From Gramella sp. Hel_I_59 (lineage in GTDB: Bacteria; Bacteroidota; Bacteroidia; Flavobacteriales; Flavobacteriaceae), in NCBI RefSeq assembly GCF_006714895.1, contig NZ_VFME01000001.1:2542001-2606000 (forward strand): a DNA stretch of 64,000 nt, in the 5' to 3' direction. The notes under the pieces were generated by a model. It was given only the letters and a program-made list of their open reading frames with translations. It searched no databases and had not been told where the DNA came from. Position numbers and translations under genes: made by a program. Position 1 is the first letter of the stretch. Each line of letters starts with the position of its first letter. Shown piece by piece: positions 1 through 59,162 of this stretch.

Positions 1-730
1 CCATTAAAAAATAAGTATATTCTAAATCCATAATTGGATATTCATATACATTTTTTTCAGCAACTTGGGTTAAAATCGTTTTGAGTATCTGTTTGGCTTC
101 AGTATAGTAGTTTGAATTATAACTTTGATCTGTATGAAAAATGTAAGGAATTGCATCGAAATATTCCTTCAATCCGAAAACTTTATTAGGTTCGTTACCT
201 AACCCAATGACTAATGAAGTAGGTTTAGTTGGTATTCCAAAATTACAGTAACCGTATAAAGGTTCGACAATTCTGTTAGGGGATTGATCGGGCTTTTCAT
301 TAACATGCTCTGCATGTGAATATCCGAACAGAATTTTTGCTTTATTTTTCTTATCAATATGAAAAATTGAATAAATTATATAAGAGTACCAATTACGGCT
401 CATGGAAGAATAATCAAGATAGATTACAGGATCATCATTTTCTGAGATAACCTTTTCAACGGCAAGAGAAATTTTATTTAAGAAAAGTGTTTCATTCTCA
501 TGCTCTTCGGCCAGATAAAATTCGAAACCTAATTGCTTATATCTCGTATCGTTCTTGATTCTATTTTTGGAATTTTTGTAGTGATCAAAACAAATTACAA
601 GTCCATTTTTTATAATTGATCGAAATTTGTTTGCTTGGAAAGTTGCCCTATTTTCAAAACCGGATGCCCCAATGAACAAATCGATTTTATTAATATTCTC
701 TAATTTTTCGAAGTGTTGTACTTTAAACAT
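1..730 (-). CDS. Unrecognised Rossmann-like protein of the accessory operon, C-terminus off the window
   Basis: An open frame runs from an ATG at 728-730 to the left edge (243 codons, no stop), so the C-terminus is missing. It follows the ATPase stop (733-735) by 2 bases and is evidently the fourth gene of the operon. The N-terminus has a hydrophobic strand and a GFENR motif (LFIGASGFENRA, about residues 18-29). Later comes a predicted strand ending in a D-Y-S-S-M-S-R motif (about residues 104-110). A beta strand followed by D/N-x-S/T-small-x-S/T-K/R recalls the nucleotide-sensing loop of CARF-type Rossmann domains, but that is inference from pattern only. I do not recognise the family. No signal peptide or membrane segment is visible. 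The base composition is AT-rich like the rest of the operon. Its place suggests a partner of the ATPase. Confidence 0.75.
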   Translation of the reverse strand, partial: MFKVQHFEKLENINKIDLFIGASGFENRATFQANKFRSIIKNGLVICFDHYKNSKNRIKNDTRYKQLGFEFYLAEEHENETLFLNKISLAVEKVISENDDPVIYLDYSSMSRNWYSYIIYSIFHIDKKNKAKILFGYSHAEHVNEKPDQSPNRIVEPLYGYCNFGIPTKPTSLVIGLGNEPNKVFGLKEYFDAIPYIFHTDQSYNSNYYTEAKQILKTILTQVAEKNVYEYPIMDLEYTYFLM

Positions 731-732
731 CT

Positions 733-2586
733 TTAGAAGATTTCAGTTTGATGATTGGTTGGTTTTTCACCTCTTAGAATAACACTTAATTTCACAAACG
801 AAATAATCCGGTTTGGTATTTTGTATCTTGGAGTAAGAAATGCTGACAATCTAAACCTTTTATTAATTACGCCTGTTTTGGACAAACTCTCGACAGGATC
901 CAAATAAACAATAGCACCTAGATGTAATGCCGTCTCTAATAATGCTACAATCTTTGCATTAATATCTACGTCTACAATAAAGGTTGTAGGTGAAGATTTT
1001 TGAAACTCGTTTGATACTAACTTTTGGAAAAAAAAGTTTCCAATTTTATCGATCAAATCAGTTGCCAAATTGAAATCCGAATTGTTTACAGTAATCGTAG
1101 AATCAGGATGATTTTTCAATAAGTTGAAATATTTCTTAGAAGCAACTGATATTACGCTGGACTGGCTATTTTTAGAAATTGGAAAATCACCCGAGTTATT
1201 TTGATTTAAAATCTCATTTATCAACCCAATTAATAACCGAGGATTACCATCACATATTTCATAAATATAAGGTACACCAAAGTGAATAGGTGGATTGCGC
1301 CTCGTTCTATTCTTATAAATCAATCGATAGATTGCATCAACCTTATATTTCAGAAAAACACTTTTCTGTAATGCTGGATCGTTTGTGAAGGGTTCGTCTG
1401 AATTAATACCTCTTTTATCTATAAATTGTTTAAATGAATCATCTATTATGGCTAATCGTTTGAAAAGGTAATACAGTGCACTTTTTTTCGCTGTAGAAGG
1501 ATATAATTGTGAATTTTTTTTATATCCTATCTGTTCCTTTTCAAAGGAATTTAAGCTGTTTAACTCATCCACTATTAGCGTATTTAATATCCATTCTCCA
1601 AATATGCTATTTACATCAAGGACACCACTGTCATATTTATTTATAATCTTTTTCTCAATTAAGCGAGCAGAAAATCTTGACCACTTATTAAGGCCCTCTT
1701 CGTCATATACCCAAAGTTTGACTGAACTAAAATCATTCCCCTGAGTAACATCTATTTCATTGTTTTCAATATCAAATAAAGGAGTAGTAGTTAACTTAAA
1801 TATAAATTTTTGGTCAACGCTTCTGAGAAACGAAACTAATTTCATTTGTAAAAACTTTGGAACTATTTCGAGCTCATCGAAGCATAGCGCCCACTTCATA
1901 TTATCTTTAAAATCAATATTTTCCTCTACTACTTTACAACCTAGCTTGGTCAGATCGAAAAATTCGTTAAAAACATAATTAGGGAGGTTTCCACGAAAAT
2001 CTTTCTGCTTACCACTAAAAATTAACTTCTTAATCAAGTTGTTAATTTGCCTAACTCGCTGTAATATTTCCAACTCTACATTATCAAGGTTAGGTATTGT
2101 GTTTGTGGGTAACTCCCAGTTACTAATTAAACCTTTACTTATTTTATACTCTTTCTGAATTTTGACCAGGGGATCTGAAACTTGGAAATCAAGAATTGAT
2201 TTAAATGTTTTACATAAAGCAATATTAATATTACAGGAAAATAAAAATTCAATAATTATTTCTACAACTGAATTTTCATTTTTAAGATGTTTCCTTAAAT
2301 AATCGAATTGGTTTTTCCATTGGATATCTGATGGTACATAAACACCAGTAAATTTAATATTATCCTTAATGGATGACGATTCTTCGTCGTTCCAGTAGGC
2401 TAATCCAGCAGGAGTAAGCATTTTCAGTAATGTTGTTTTGCCACAGCCTCTAGATCCCATCAACAACATGCTACTATCCTTGGCTAATTCACGATATTCA
2501 TCATTTACTACAAATGATTCCGAAATGTCTTTGAAGGAAAAATATCGGGCATTGAATGTATCGTACAGTAAAAGTTTATCAATCAT
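733..2586 (-). CDS. ORC/Cdc6-like AAA-type P-loop ATPase of the accessory operon
   Basis: This is a 617-residue cytoplasmic protein. It has a Walker A motif GSRGCGKT at residues 44-51 and a Walker B motif CFDELE at 235-240. A sensor-1-like stretch (FKLTTTP) follows near residue 265, and a GNPRLL motif lies near residue 455, where ORC/Cdc6-type ATPases carry sensor 2. The gap of about 185 residues between Walker A and B is long and suggests an insertion. The motifs show an ATPase; the ORC/Cdc6 assignment is inferred from the spacing and the GNPR motif, and a STAND-type ATPase is the main alternative. It starts 1 base after the phosphoesterase stop, and the next gene begins 2 bases after its own stop, so all are probably co-transcribed. 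Such ATPases are frequent motors or sensors in prokaryotic defence operons. Confidence 0.85.
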   Translation of the reverse strand: MIDKLLLYDTFNARYFSFKDISESFVVNDEYRELAKDSSMLLMGSRGCGKTTLLKMLTPAGLAYWNDEESSSIKDNIKFTGVYVPSDIQWKNQFDYLRKHLKNENSVVEIIIEFLFSCNINIALCKTFKSILDFQVSDPLVKIQKEYKISKGLISNWELPTNTIPNLDNVELEILQRVRQINNLIKKLIFSGKQKDFRGNLPNYVFNEFFDLTKLGCKVVEENIDFKDNMKWALCFDELEIVPKFLQMKLVSFLRSVDQKFIFKLTTTPLFDIENNEIDVTQGNDFSSVKLWVYDEEGLNKWSRFSARLIEKKIINKYDSGVLDVNSIFGEWILNTLIVDELNSLNSFEKEQIGYKKNSQLYPSTAKKSALYYLFKRLAIIDDSFKQFIDKRGINSDEPFTNDPALQKSVFLKYKVDAIYRLIYKNRTRRNPPIHFGVPYIYEICDGNPRLLIGLINEILNQNNSGDFPISKNSQSSVISVASKKYFNLLKNHPDSTITVNNSDFNLATDLIDKIGNFFFQKLVSNEFQKSSPTTFIVDVDINAKIVALLETALHLGAIVYLDPVESLSKTGVINKRFRLSAFLTPRYKIPNRIISFVKLSVILRGEKPTNHQTEIF

Positions 2587-2587
2587 T

Positions 2588-3718
2588 TCATCTACTGGTT
2601 AAAACAGCTGGTTTTAATGGAAATTCCGGCTGAGGAACTAAATTAAATTGCTTGTTTAATAAATCTCCCAATTTGATCAGAGTTTCTGGAGTCATGTAAT
2701 CTAATTCAGGATTTGCCAACATCACGCTTTCATACAAAACAGCATCTGAATTAAAACTATCAAAAGTTGTTTTTATCTTCTTAGCTAATGTATTTAAATT
2801 TACTCTTTCTCCAAATCCAATTTCTGGTGGAAAACGATGGTTTAATTCTACCTCCCAGCCATTTTGAATATTATATTCCCATGAAAATATTTTTCCTTTG
2901 CTTTTTGATTTTATGTCCACCACGTGAAACATTGTTTTAAAACCAGTCCCTTGTAAATTCTCAAATGAAGAGAAACTCCCACTAGCAAAGATCGTAAGAC
3001 CATCCCTCTCTACAATTCTTGGTTGATGCTTATGACCATGAATAACTAAATCGTAATTGTACCTATTTAAAATTGTCAACAATGTATCCCCGCGATCCAG
3101 TGAATCAGCGTCTCTCCAATTTTCTATATTTGAATGTTTAATTGGATGGTGATGTAGTATACATATTTTGATTTTTTGTTCATCAGAATTCAGTTCTTCT
3201 TCTATGGCTTCCAATGTTCTATGTGAAATTTCTGAAATTCCCGCACTCGCTTCATCTATATGATTGAGAACTGTATTTATCATCAGAATTTCAAAATCTT
3301 TAAATTCGTAAATACAATAGCCCTCCTGCCAGAACTTTAGGTTCGATTCTTTATCAGGTGTTGGAAAATTAATACTAAAATTCTCTATGTACTCAAATGG
3401 CTTTTCACCTACATATGTTTTTCTCGAATTTACATCATGGTTTCCAGGTATTCCAATTAAGATTTCGGCATTCATCTCATTTTTTATTCTGTTCAATCCT
3501 TCCCAAGCTGATTTAATTCCTTGCTTATAAGCTTTATCTCCTAGGTCTCCCAAACACAGGACAATATCAGAATGAGTTGACTTATCCTCACCAATTTTTT
3601 TCAAAATTGAAGAAATTGGATTCTGGTTAATAGGCACATCAGGAATATCTGAATAAAAAAAAGAACTATTACCTTTTTTTTCAGTACAGTGCAAATCACT
3701 AATTATACATAACTTCAT
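2588..3718 (-). CDS. Calcineurin-like metallophosphoesterase of the accessory operon
   Basis: The 376-residue protein carries all five calcineurin-like metal-binding blocks: D8 and H10 in SDLH, GDLGD at 57-61, GNHD at 92-95, the HHH cluster at 189-191 and GHKH at 228-231. It should therefore be an active di-metal phosphodiesterase, nuclease or phosphatase; the substrate cannot be read from sequence. A C-terminal segment of about 120 residues after the fold is unassigned. I chose the ATG at 3716-3718 because SDLH then falls where the family usually has it. A TTG at 3728-3730 overlapping the methyltransferase stop by 4 bp would add four residues. It sits between a DNA methyltransferase and an ATPase, which suggests it is the effector or signal-degrading enzyme of a defence-type operon (inference). 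Confidence 0.88.
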   Translation of the reverse strand: MKLCIISDLHCTEKKGNSSFFYSDIPDVPINQNPISSILKKIGEDKSTHSDIVLCLGDLGDKAYKQGIKSAWEGLNRIKNEMNAEILIGIPGNHDVNSRKTYVGEKPFEYIENFSINFPTPDKESNLKFWQEGYCIYEFKDFEILMINTVLNHIDEASAGISEISHRTLEAIEEELNSDEQKIKICILHHHPIKHSNIENWRDADSLDRGDTLLTILNRYNYDLVIHGHKHQPRIVERDGLTIFASGSFSSFENLQGTGFKTMFHVVDIKSKSKGKIFSWEYNIQNGWEVELNHRFPPEIGFGERVNLNTLAKKIKTTFDSFNSDAVLYESVMLANPELDYMTPETLIKLGDLLNKQFNLVPQPEFPLKPAVLTSR

Positions 3719-3726
3719 TCCAGGTA

Positions 3727-4560
3727 TCAATAGTTTTTTATAATTATTTCTGGTATTTTCTTCCTTATTTTTTTACCACTAATGCTTCTTACAGTGTCAA
3801 GCTGAATTATATTCCAATGTTTATACTGCTTCCTTATAAATTCAATATCTGGGTACGAGATAAGGACATAGGAATCGTTATTAGCCAGATTGGATGCGTA
3901 TTCTGCCAACTCTAAATGATCATTTTTTGTGAAATGATCTTTAGTATATTGACGCTGATGATTAGACCAATCATAAGGTGGATAAGGGGGATCCATGTAG
4001 ACAAAATCGTTCCTTTTAATATCTGTTACTACAGATTTATAATCTCTGGCTAATATCGTGGTATCTTGAAGTTTCAAGCTTATAGCTGAAAGATGATCGT
4101 ATGCAGGCAGACTAGGTTTGGTCTTACCTAATGGAACATTATAACTCCCTCGCTTGTTAATCCTGTACATACCATTATAATTGGTGTGAATAAGAAAAAT
4201 AAATCTACCAGCTTGTTCGTAACCAGACCTTCTAATATTTTTGTTGTAATCCTCTCGAATCTTGTAATAATATTCATGATTCCTTTCGAAACGTTTCGCG
4301 TGAAATTTTAAAAGTTCACTTATCTTTTCGAAGTTACTTTTAATGGAATTATAAGAATTTATTAATGGAAAATTTACATCAGATATAGTTGAGGAAGGAA
4401 AAGATGACTGAAAGAATAGACTTCCAGCACCTAAAAAGGGTTCAAAATAATTTGTAATGGTATTTGAAGGAAGATTGTTAATGATCTCTGTAATTAATTT
4501 CTGCTTACCACCTGCCCATCGCAAAAATGGCTTTTCAACTAAAACTTCTTTATCGATCAT
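3727..4560 (-). CDS. Dam-type (D12 class) DNA adenine N6-methyltransferase
   Basis: The protein (277 residues) has the D12-class layout: an N-terminal LRWAGGK block at 13-19, the SAM-binding motif PFLGAGS at 41-47 and the catalytic DPPY at 190-193. The family transfers methyl groups from S-adenosylmethionine to N6 of adenine, typically in short motifs such as GATC; the target here is unknown. The ATG at 4558-4560 puts the WAGGK block at the usual distance. An alternative TTG at 4573-4575 lies inside an inverted repeat that looks like an operator, so I disfavour it. It is the first gene of the minus-strand operon and ends 8 bases before the phosphoesterase ATG. No classic restriction endonuclease is visible beside it, so it either marks self DNA for the rest of the operon or is a solitary enzyme. 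Confidence 0.92.
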   Translation of the reverse strand: MIDKEVLVEKPFLRWAGGKQKLITEIINNLPSNTITNYFEPFLGAGSLFFQSSFPSSTISDVNFPLINSYNSIKSNFEKISELLKFHAKRFERNHEYYYKIREDYNKNIRRSGYEQAGRFIFLIHTNYNGMYRINKRGSYNVPLGKTKPSLPAYDHLSAISLKLQDTTILARDYKSVVTDIKRNDFVYMDPPYPPYDWSNHQRQYTKDHFTKNDHLELAEYASNLANNDSYVLISYPDIEFIRKQYKHWNIIQLDTVRSISGKKIRKKIPEIIIKNY

Positions 4561-4567
4561 GTAGAAA

Positions 4568-4586
4568 TTAAACAAAAATTGTTTAA
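4568..4586. promoter_or_regulatory. Perfect inverted repeat at the head of the accessory operon
   Basis: TTAAACAA, then AAA, then TTGTTTAA: 8-bp perfect arms immediately upstream of the methyltransferase ATG (4560). On the minus strand it contains AATTTTTG, one base off the TAnnTTTG -7 element. It therefore plausibly combines promoter and operator, as in autoregulated modification genes. The function is inferred. Confidence 0.45.
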
Positions 4587-4684
4587 GTAATTCGAAAACT
4601 TCATATTAGAATACTACAAACTTACTTGTAATTATAAGTCGCCAGCAAAATAACATATAAAAAAAGAAAAAGCTTAGTAATATT

Positions 4685-4740
4685 GCAAGAATAGCTTTCA
4701 AAAATTGAGATCTGATTGGTGATCCCTAGAATATTCTTGC
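4685..4740. repeat. Spaced inverted repeat between tRNA-Ser and the accessory operon
   Basis: GCAAGAATA (4685-4693) and TATTCTTGC (4732-4740) are perfect 9-bp arms separated by 38 bases. The right arm also overlaps the palindrome AGAATATTCT (4729-4738). It lies in the non-coding stretch between the island and the tRNA terminator. It could be a recombination-associated site or a protein-binding dyad, and chance is possible in such AT-rich DNA. Confidence 0.3.
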
Positions 4741-4800
4741 TAGAACTCATTTGATTTAAAAATGGAACAAACAACACCTAATTCAACACCTAAAAATACA

Positions 4801-4830
4801 AAGCCCCGTTATCATTGAGATACGGGGCTT
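4801..4830 (-). terminator. Intrinsic terminator of tRNA-Ser
   Basis: AAGCCCCGT (4801-4809) pairs perfectly with ACGGGGCTT (4822-4830) around a 12-base loop. Read on the minus strand, the hairpin lies just after the tRNA 3' end and is followed by TTTGTATTTTT. The plus strand also has TTTT after it, so it may work both ways. Confidence 0.75.
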
Positions 4831-4835
4831 TTCTG

Positions 4836-4920
4836 CGGAGAAAGAGGGATTCGAACCCCCGGAGGTGTGACCCTCAACAGTTTTCAAGACTGCCGCATTC
4901 GACCGCTCTGCCATTTCTCC
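4836..4920 (-). tRNA. tRNA-Ser (anticodon UGA)
   Basis: An 85-nt cloverleaf on the minus strand: acceptor stem GGAGAAA/TTTCTCC with discriminator G at 4836, a long variable arm typical of class II tRNAs, and the TTCGAAT T-loop. The anticodon loop CTTGAAA gives TGA (4884-4886), reading UCA serine codons. CCA is not encoded after the discriminator. Its 3' end faces the AT-rich accessory operon; tRNA 3' ends are common integration sites. Confidence 0.96.
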
Positions 4921-4930
4921 TGAGTGTCCT

Positions 4931-4947
4931 ATCAGCTATTTGCTGAT
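4931..4947 (-). other. Small hairpin in the tRNA-Ser 5' leader
   Basis: ATCAGC, TATTT, GCTGAT: a 6-bp stem between the promoter and the mature tRNA 5' end (4920). It could help RNase P or other leader processing; the function is inferred. Confidence 0.35.
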
Positions 4948-4955
4948 TGCGGGTG

Positions 4956-4987
4956 CAAATATAACAAGCTTTTTTAATTTTCAACAA
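4956..4987 (-). promoter_or_regulatory. Bacteroidota promoter of tRNA-Ser
   Basis: On the minus strand a -7 element TATATTTG (4956-4963) is preceded after 18 nt by a -33 TTG (4982-4984), with another TTG at 4985-4987. This matches the TTG/TAnnTTTG consensus and places the transcription start a few tens of bases before the tRNA. Confidence 0.75.
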
Positions 4988-5138
4988 CTAATTTCTAAAC
5001 TTTTTCTTCTTTTTTCGTAGCTGCTTCTATATCAGTCAATTTCATATTAATAATTTACTTTGAAAAATTCAATAGAAATTTTAGCTTCTATTTTTATTTA
5101 CTTTTCTTTCAATCTTTATACGAAATTCTAACAGAATT

Positions 5139-55976: not shown

Positions 55977-56046
55977 CACTCATTCTAAAATAACCTCTGG
56001 CGAGAAACGTGCATGTTGTTTTTGAATTTACTTTAAACTATTAAGA

Positions 56047-56400
56047 ATGGAATCGTTAGTAAAATTTGTTCAGGACGAATTCGTATCAAGAAAAGATCTA
56101 CCTGAATTTTCAGCAGGAGATACTATTACTGTTTATTACGAAATTACAGAGGGTCAGAAAACAAGAACACAGTTCTTTAGAGGTGTTGTTATCCAGTTAA
56201 GAGGAACAGGATCATCTCAAACCTTCACTATTAGAAAGATGAGTGGAACTGTTGGAGTGGAAAGAATTTTCCCGATCAACCTTCCGGCGATTCAAAAAAT
56301 TGAGATCAATAAGAAAGGTAAAGTTAGAAGAGCTAGAATTTTCTACTTTAGAGAACTTACTGGTAAGAAAGCCCGTATCAAAGAAGCTATCAGAAGATAA
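56047..56400 (+). CDS. rplS: Ribosomal protein bL19
   Basis: The 117-residue protein has the standard L19 blocks: FSAGDTITVYYEITEG (about 22-37), FRGVVIQLRGTGSSQTFTIRK (about 44-64) and a C-terminal KVRRARIFYFRE. It sits at the 30S-50S interface. Length is normal. A consensus promoter and a leader of about 65 bases precede it, and a strong terminator follows. trmD just upstream is its usual neighbour. Confidence 0.98.
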   Translation: MESLVKFVQDEFVSRKDLPEFSAGDTITVYYEITEGQKTRTQFFRGVVIQLRGTGSSQTFTIRKMSGTVGVERIFPINLPAIQKIEINKKGKVRRARIFYFRELTGKKARIKEAIRR

Positions 56401-56421
56401 TTCTTTCTCATACAAATATTT

Positions 56422-56453
56422 AAAAGCCCCGGTTCTTCCGGGGCTTTTTTTGT
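56422..56453 (+). terminator. Terminator of rplS
   Basis: AAAAGCCCCGG-TTCTT-CCGGGGCTTTT followed by further T. Confidence 0.92.
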
Positions 56454-56559
56454 TTAAATCATTTACTATCAAAAAGTTAAAGTCTTTTCAGAATAGGATT
56501 ATAATAGTTATCTTTAAGTAAGAGATTTGAAATGACAAAAGGATTTTTAGATCTTGAAG

Positions 56560-56582
56560 GAAGTAAAGAGTTTTTTTACTTC
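56560..56582 (+). other. Hairpin in the rplS-icd intergenic region
   Basis: GAAGTAAA (56560-56567) and TTTACTTC (56575-56582) with a 7-base loop. Perfect 8-bp stem, T-rich loop. The role is unknown. Confidence 0.4.
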
Positions 56583-56748
56583 TAGAGTTTGAAATTTTCT
56601 ATATAACATTAGTGTTTTGGACATCAAAACCAGTTTGAAAGATTTCTTATTCGGTCATATTTTCTAATAGAATTTATGATTTTCTGGAAGCAGTGATGAT
56701 TCGATTGAGTTTTAGCTTAGTTTAAAAATGGATCAATTACAGTTTCTG

Positions 56749-56789
56749 AAGCCATTTCATTTTAATTATAAGATGAAATGGCTTTTTTT
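56749..56789 (+). terminator. Orphan intrinsic terminator with no gene upstream
   Basis: AAGCCATTTCAT (56749-56760) pairs perfectly with ATGAAATGGCTT (56773-56784), ending in a run of T. rplS already has its own terminator 300 bases earlier, so this one likely ends a separate small transcript. Confidence 0.8.
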
Positions 56790-56879
56790 ATGCTTTAAAT
56801 TAAGATCTCTTAACAGCTCATCATCCATTGACTCCTAGGAAAAAAGAGTGAAAATCTGTATATTGCGCGTATGACGATG

Positions 56880-56897
56880 CCCTGGAATGTTCCAGGG
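56880..56897 (+). promoter_or_regulatory. Hairpin in the icd leader
   Basis: CCCTGGAA-TG-TTCCAGGG, a perfect 8-bp stem followed by TTTCTTTG, ending 36 bases before the icd ATG. A TATATTGC (one base off TAnnTTTG) lies about 20 bases upstream. It may be an attenuator or a stabilising 5' structure. Confidence 0.5.
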
Positions 56898-56933
56898 TTT
56901 TCTTTGAACTTATTGCAATCAAAAACAAAATAA

Positions 56934-59162
<2,229 letters not shown>

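Follow-up and report, generated by a model that had tools for sequence, protein, structure and literature searches.

We identified a four-gene operon at the start of a 64,000-nucleotide stretch of the Gramella sp. Hel_I_59 genome (RefSeq assembly GCF_006714895.1, contig NZ_VFME01000001.1, positions 2,542,001 to 2,606,000; hereafter the window). All four genes lie on the minus strand. They encode a Dam-family (D12) adenine-N6 DNA methyltransferase (MT; 3727..4575, likely ATG at 4560 as judged from the sequence), a metallophosphatase of the calcineurin-like phosphoesterase type with a C-terminal segment resembling a winged helix-turn-helix (PE; 2588..3730, likely ATG at 3718), a 617-residue ORC/Cdc6-like AAA+ ATPase (ORC; 733..2586), and a tandem-CARF protein of the CARF6 type (gene D; 1..730, open reading frame (ORF) 2-730). 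The operon is real and recurrent, and most likely constitutes a defence system in which methylation is linked to an ORC-type ATPase, with a CARF protein as sensor and a phosphatase as effector. We give an even chance to the fuller description of it as a mobile, methylation-licensed defence system.

Because the co-occurrence survey was seeded by gene D alone (49 loci in named genomes), its counts do not presuppose the partner genes. ORC adjoins gene D in 30 of the 49 loci. The complete series MT, PE, ORC and gene D occurs in the same order and on the same strand in 22 loci, a recurrence that makes the arrangement more than chance, and PE, ORC and gene D occur without MT in another four. Four ORC-bearing loci are near a contig edge (L011, L018, L041 and L045); among the 19 loci without ORC, the contig ends at L013 and at L047, and L015 is fragmentary. 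According to the record titles, the ORC-bearing loci belong to Bacteroidota, Pseudomonadota, Nitrospirota, Thermodesulfobacteriota, Verrucomicrobia and Planctomycetota, and in most operons the genes overlap or almost touch. The window ORC matches five plasmid records, four of which were opened; all four genes are present on three (Sinorhizobium, Cupriavidus and Methylobacterium), and the Pseudoalteromonas plasmid lacks MT. The neighbourhood survey therefore upholds the original prediction that these families form a unit, as they recur together in unrelated genomes and on plasmids. Pairwise distances of the four proteins are also correlated (r 0.80-0.955, with none of 2000 permutations as high in a Mantel test on 31 operons, 27 for MT), which shows joint inheritance rather than interaction. 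The MT set includes the nearby divergent MT of L096, and L048, in which PE is split into two ORFs, was excluded from the Mantel set and included in the tree.

The four-gene set is rare. A full-length match to PF24389, the family of the ATPase, was found in four of 395 Bacteroidota genomes, and a gene D homologue adjoins it in all four. The gene D profile likewise matches in 4/395, one of them weakly, and missed genome G259, whose homologue was found by a family HMM on its ORFs. Among 99 relatives this profile matched the window's own genome alone, which has a single copy of the operon, and a search of 369 genomes from the class of Enterobacter with the Enterobacter ORC matched one, the source genome. 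Phages were considered as carriers and rejected: no match to gene D exists among 50,697 phage records, and in IMG/VR the window ORC has none and a short ORF resembling gene D is present on two contigs. A search by megablast alone gave no near match to the Enterobacter three-gene stretch in 20,395 E. coli records. The Enterobacter ORC has no plasmid match, whereas the window ORC has the five noted above.

The identities originally proposed for the methyltransferase, phosphoesterase and ORC-like ATPase are borne out by matches to TIGR00571, PF00149 and PF24389, respectively. MT matches TIGR00571 (dam) at 7.7e-68, with 229.1 bits against a curated cut-off of 114.85, and PF02086 at 2e-50; its nearest relatives in the PDB are DpnM (2dpm, 1.9e-48) and E. 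coli Dam (2g1p, 7.9e-35). The catalytic DPPY is present in 27 of 27 MTs, as are the residues aligned with R124 and P134 of E. coli Dam, which we take to be base-contact residues. Its target is predicted to be GATC-like from the enzyme family and from its exchange with other Dam-family MTs. ORC matches PF24389 along its full length (ORC-CDC6-like; 3.4e-99 over residues 8-593, 333.6 bits against a cut-off of 27). Its Walker A residues G44, G47, K50 and T51 and Walker B residues D237-E238 are conserved in 31 of 31 sequences, and G49 in 30.

Gene D continues past base 1 of the window to genome position 2541792, and the extension completes it to 312 residues (L002:11792-12730, minus strand). It had been described as an unrecognised Rossmann-like protein, a label that no longer holds in its first part, as both the PADLOC models and the fold identify a tandem-CARF protein. 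The full-length protein has no match at E 0.1 in Pfam or NCBIfam. The part in the window matches the PADLOC CARF6 models (best 1.4e-34), as do all eight of the relatives scanned, and its fold is CARF/SAVED-like, in tandem. Conserved residues are found in the loops after strands 1 and 4 in each half, where CARF proteins bind ligand, and a nucleotide ligand may be proposed. The CARF6 label reportedly goes back to Makarova et al. in 2020.

PE matches PF00149 (Metallophos) at 7.4e-16. Its C-terminus scores 25.1 bits against the wHTH-Calcineurin_assc family (PF24408; cut-off 27), and the cut-off is exceeded in three of seven relatives. The nearest structures by fold are Rv0805, Lmo2642 and SMPDL3A, and by sequence 2xmo, Rv0805 and a nucleotidase; both Rv0805 and SMPDL3A have cyclic-nucleotide cleavage activity. 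The position of PE can be taken by other proteins. In G259 the order is an N6_N4-type MT, PRTase-CE (7.4e-62), ORC and CARF6, and PE thus occupies the slot of another candidate effector. In G352 MT is followed by a kinase-ORC fusion and CARF6, and in G175 an MT-like ORF, judged by eye, precedes a single protein of 1236 residues that combines kinase, ORC and CARF6 parts. A PADLOC fusion model, CARF_STK_AAA, matches locus L098 at 3.1e-35. What stays constant is MT, the ORC-type ATPase and CARF6, a frame on which PE, PRTase-CE and kinase are swapped. The replacement in one relative fits the earlier suggestion that the phosphoesterase is the effector.

Since PE resembles cyclic-nucleotide cleavers such as Rv0805 and SMPDL3A (for SMPDL3A the activity is stated in the DefensePredictor study, PMC13092281) and is encoded together with a CARF sensor, it could instead be an off-switch that destroys the nucleotide activating the CARF protein, in the manner of ring nucleases or SMPDL3A, with the damage done by ORC or the CARF protein. 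We consider this unlikely. Where PRTase-CE or a kinase stands in for PE, ORC and CARF6 are kept, which better suits an effector. In addition, metallophosphatase mutants of the systems DS-8 and DS-9 described in that study lose phage defence, so that protection there needs the enzyme.

MT is absent in six operons (Paraglaciecola, Shewanella, Enterobacter, Serratia, the Pseudoalteromonas plasmid and the Bacteroidota genome G233), which on the ORC tree amounts to three changes forced by well-supported branches. Another Dam-family MT over the cut-off was found in all five of the MT-less genomes tested compared with two of 21 MT-bearing genomes (Fisher p 3.2e-4, or 0.024 with the gammaproteobacteria counted once). 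The test left out the MT-bearing L009 and L031, covered the four plasmid hosts by their plasmid records alone, and counted G404 and L004, which share coordinates and are apparently one genome, once. In G233 a DpnM-like MT (7.9e-75) is encoded about 3 kb away from the operon without MT. What the operon requires, on the simplest interpretation, is the methyl mark and not an MT of its own. That the methyltransferase marks self DNA, as first suggested, fits its loss where, among the genomes tested, another Dam-family enzyme exists.

In the mechanism that we favour, MT would mark host DNA as self by methylating a GATC-like site, and the operon could dispense with its own MT where another Dam-family enzyme is present. 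ORC probably assembles on DNA without the mark or on another signal of invasion, and gene D, given its CARF fold, would gate the response through a nucleotide ligand. PE, whose place in the operon and fold are shown and which resembles cyclic-nucleotide phosphodiesterases, would be the effector and would act on free or cyclic nucleotides, not by cutting DNA. A more specific and tentative proposal, possible but to be held with less than even confidence, is a new form of methylation-directed immunity in which the ORC-like AAA+ ATPase, coupled to the CARF sensor, reads a Dam/GATC mark, unmarked DNA is punished by depletion of nucleotides or of a nucleotide signal and not by DNA cleavage, and the operon can borrow host Dam as its antidote and then drops MT. 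If correct, this would unite methylation-based self recognition with CARF-gated nucleotide targeting, two immune principles that are usually separate, and the forms without MT should rely on host Dam. CARF6 proteins would also gain operon partners and hence a testable function.

The operon appears to have been carried to its present site. A tRNA-Ser(tga) gene identified by ARAGORN (4835..4920, minus strand) adjoins it, as had been noted, and serves as the integration target. A 15-bp direct repeat of the 3' end of the tRNA is found at 4834..4848 and again at genome position 2526534, approximately 20.3 kb away, and about 150 bases inward of the far copy begins a Phage_integrase gene (PF00589, 1.2e-17). 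Between the copies are a MobB relaxase, a ParE-like toxin, an EcoAI-type type I restriction-modification system, a PD-(D/E)XK gene and the operon. The operon is thus cargo of an integrative element of about 20.3 kb, which is probably mobilisable.

Several observations weigh against a defence system of this kind. A scan of the operon and of seven upstream genes revealed no recognised cyclase that would make the CARF ligand. The 19 of 49 gene D homologues without a nearby ORC, many adjoining metabolic genes, indicate that the CARF6 fold is not restricted to this operon. With regard to Dam, four of the five tested MT-less genomes belong to one clade, G233 and Pseudoalteromonas form long branches on the ORC tree, and another Dam-family MT is also present in the two MT-bearing genomes mentioned above. 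Background frequencies of such an enzyme over the cut-off are 58 of 59 genomes in the family of Paraglaciecola and 22 of 148 in Bacteroidota, and a host enzyme is therefore expected in the former regardless of the operon. GATC as the mark is itself what we infer from family and exchange.

A PADLOC model labelled 'Effector / Endonuclease' also matches the Enterobacter PE, at 2.3e-9. This one endonuclease match is a point in favour of reading PE as a DNA nuclease like SbcD/Mre11, and the operon as restriction-modification of an unusual kind in which unmethylated DNA is cut. We rank that explanation lower on the nearest relatives of PE by fold and sequence, and regard it as distinctly unlikely.

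The defence-island test lends weak support and no proof of defence. From 160 operon neighbours listed, 109 were taken, usually the nearest two on each side; they include few known defence genes (nine PADLOC models with one member each), and in the best 25 of 99 families their Pfam table is headed by mobile genes. The "defence-type" label of the original prediction stands as something we infer. Alternatively, the operon could be a module serving replication, partition or addiction in mobile elements, based on Dam methylation and an ORC-type ATPase, and confer no immunity. Its presence on plasmids and within an integrated element is in keeping with such a module, as are the few defence neighbours, and both ORC/Cdc6-like ATPases and Dam recall replication control. 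However, neighbourhoods differ by locus with no common replication partner seen, and a CARF protein with interchangeable PE, PRTase-CE and kinase genes is what conflict systems typically show. Addiction by methylation would, moreover, lose its hold in Dam-positive hosts, where the MT-less operons occur. We therefore consider a module of this type very unlikely.

The operon shares features with several known systems. PADLOC recognises CARF6 through models of single components, and none of its matches here names a system of MT, PE, ORC and CARF6. DpnII-type type II restriction-modification shares the MT family and the self-mark logic; however, family scans of the four proteins confirm the stated lack of a restriction nuclease, in place of which the operon encodes an ATPase, a CARF protein and a phosphatase. 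The fold of gene D is similar to the SAVED and CARF sensors of CBASS and type III CRISPR systems, but no CD-NTase, cyclase or Cas10 was recognised in the four operon and seven upstream island proteins, and the window sensor is not fused to an effector. Of the families of predicted nucleotide-targeting immune systems, PF24389 and PF24390 (PRTase-CE) match here, and PF24408 does so above its cut-off in the three relatives noted above. These families presumably derive from Nicastro et al. in 2023, who are said to have predicted such systems with Calcineurin-CE and PRTase-CE effectors; PE is a candidate for the Calcineurin-CE type, a metallophosphatase with an associated winged helix-turn-helix.

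A metallophosphatase is shared with DS-8 and DS-9 (PMC13092281), which pair it with NACHT and with a HAD phosphatase, respectively. The scores lie below the NCBIfam equivalog cut-offs: the window PE has 65.5 bits against the DS9_1 cut-off of 420, and the Enterobacter PE has 105.1 against the same cut-off and 38.2 against 790 for DS8. No name for the four-gene operon as a unit was found in PADLOC 2.0 and NCBIfam 20.0 or in the literature searched, a comparison outside which lies Nicastro et al. 2023, the work likeliest to describe it. Because the part families already exist in Pfam and PADLOC, "undescribed" applies at most to the operon as a named unit, within those libraries and that literature.

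As initially observed, the four genes are tightly packed, with spacers of 8, 1 and 2 bases given the ATG starts above, and AT-rich. The GC content is 0.309-0.333 over bases 1-5000 and 0.35-0.435 in the other kilobases of the window, with the sole exception of 56001-57000 (0.316). The restriction-modification genes of the element lie beyond base 1 on the other strand, where hsdR, hsdM and hsdS followed by a PD-(D/E)XK_4 gene (L002:5481-11757, genome 2535481-2541757) are convergent with the operon. Three further Dam-like genes in this genome (2924628, 3399153 and 3401372) score 95-96 bits, below the cut-off of 114.85.

In G233 a DUF6996/DUF6997 gene overlaps the DpnM-like MT (L096:2-1682), and the two could be a restriction-modification pair; we do not claim the former as a GATC restriction enzyme, as it has no supporting PDB relative. 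On the Pseudoalteromonas plasmid a 614-residue protein with no Pfam match (L093:2889-4733) is encoded in the place of MT, downstream of an HNH gene. The gene D homologues without ORC in Bacteroidota (L012, L014, L016, L019-L024, L029, L030, L032, L038, L039, L042 and L043) possibly represent a chromosomal single-gene CARF6 branch with a different role. Many adjoin recurring metabolic-looking genes, such as those for biotin carboxylase and a 2-oxoacid dehydrogenase acyltransferase in L012.
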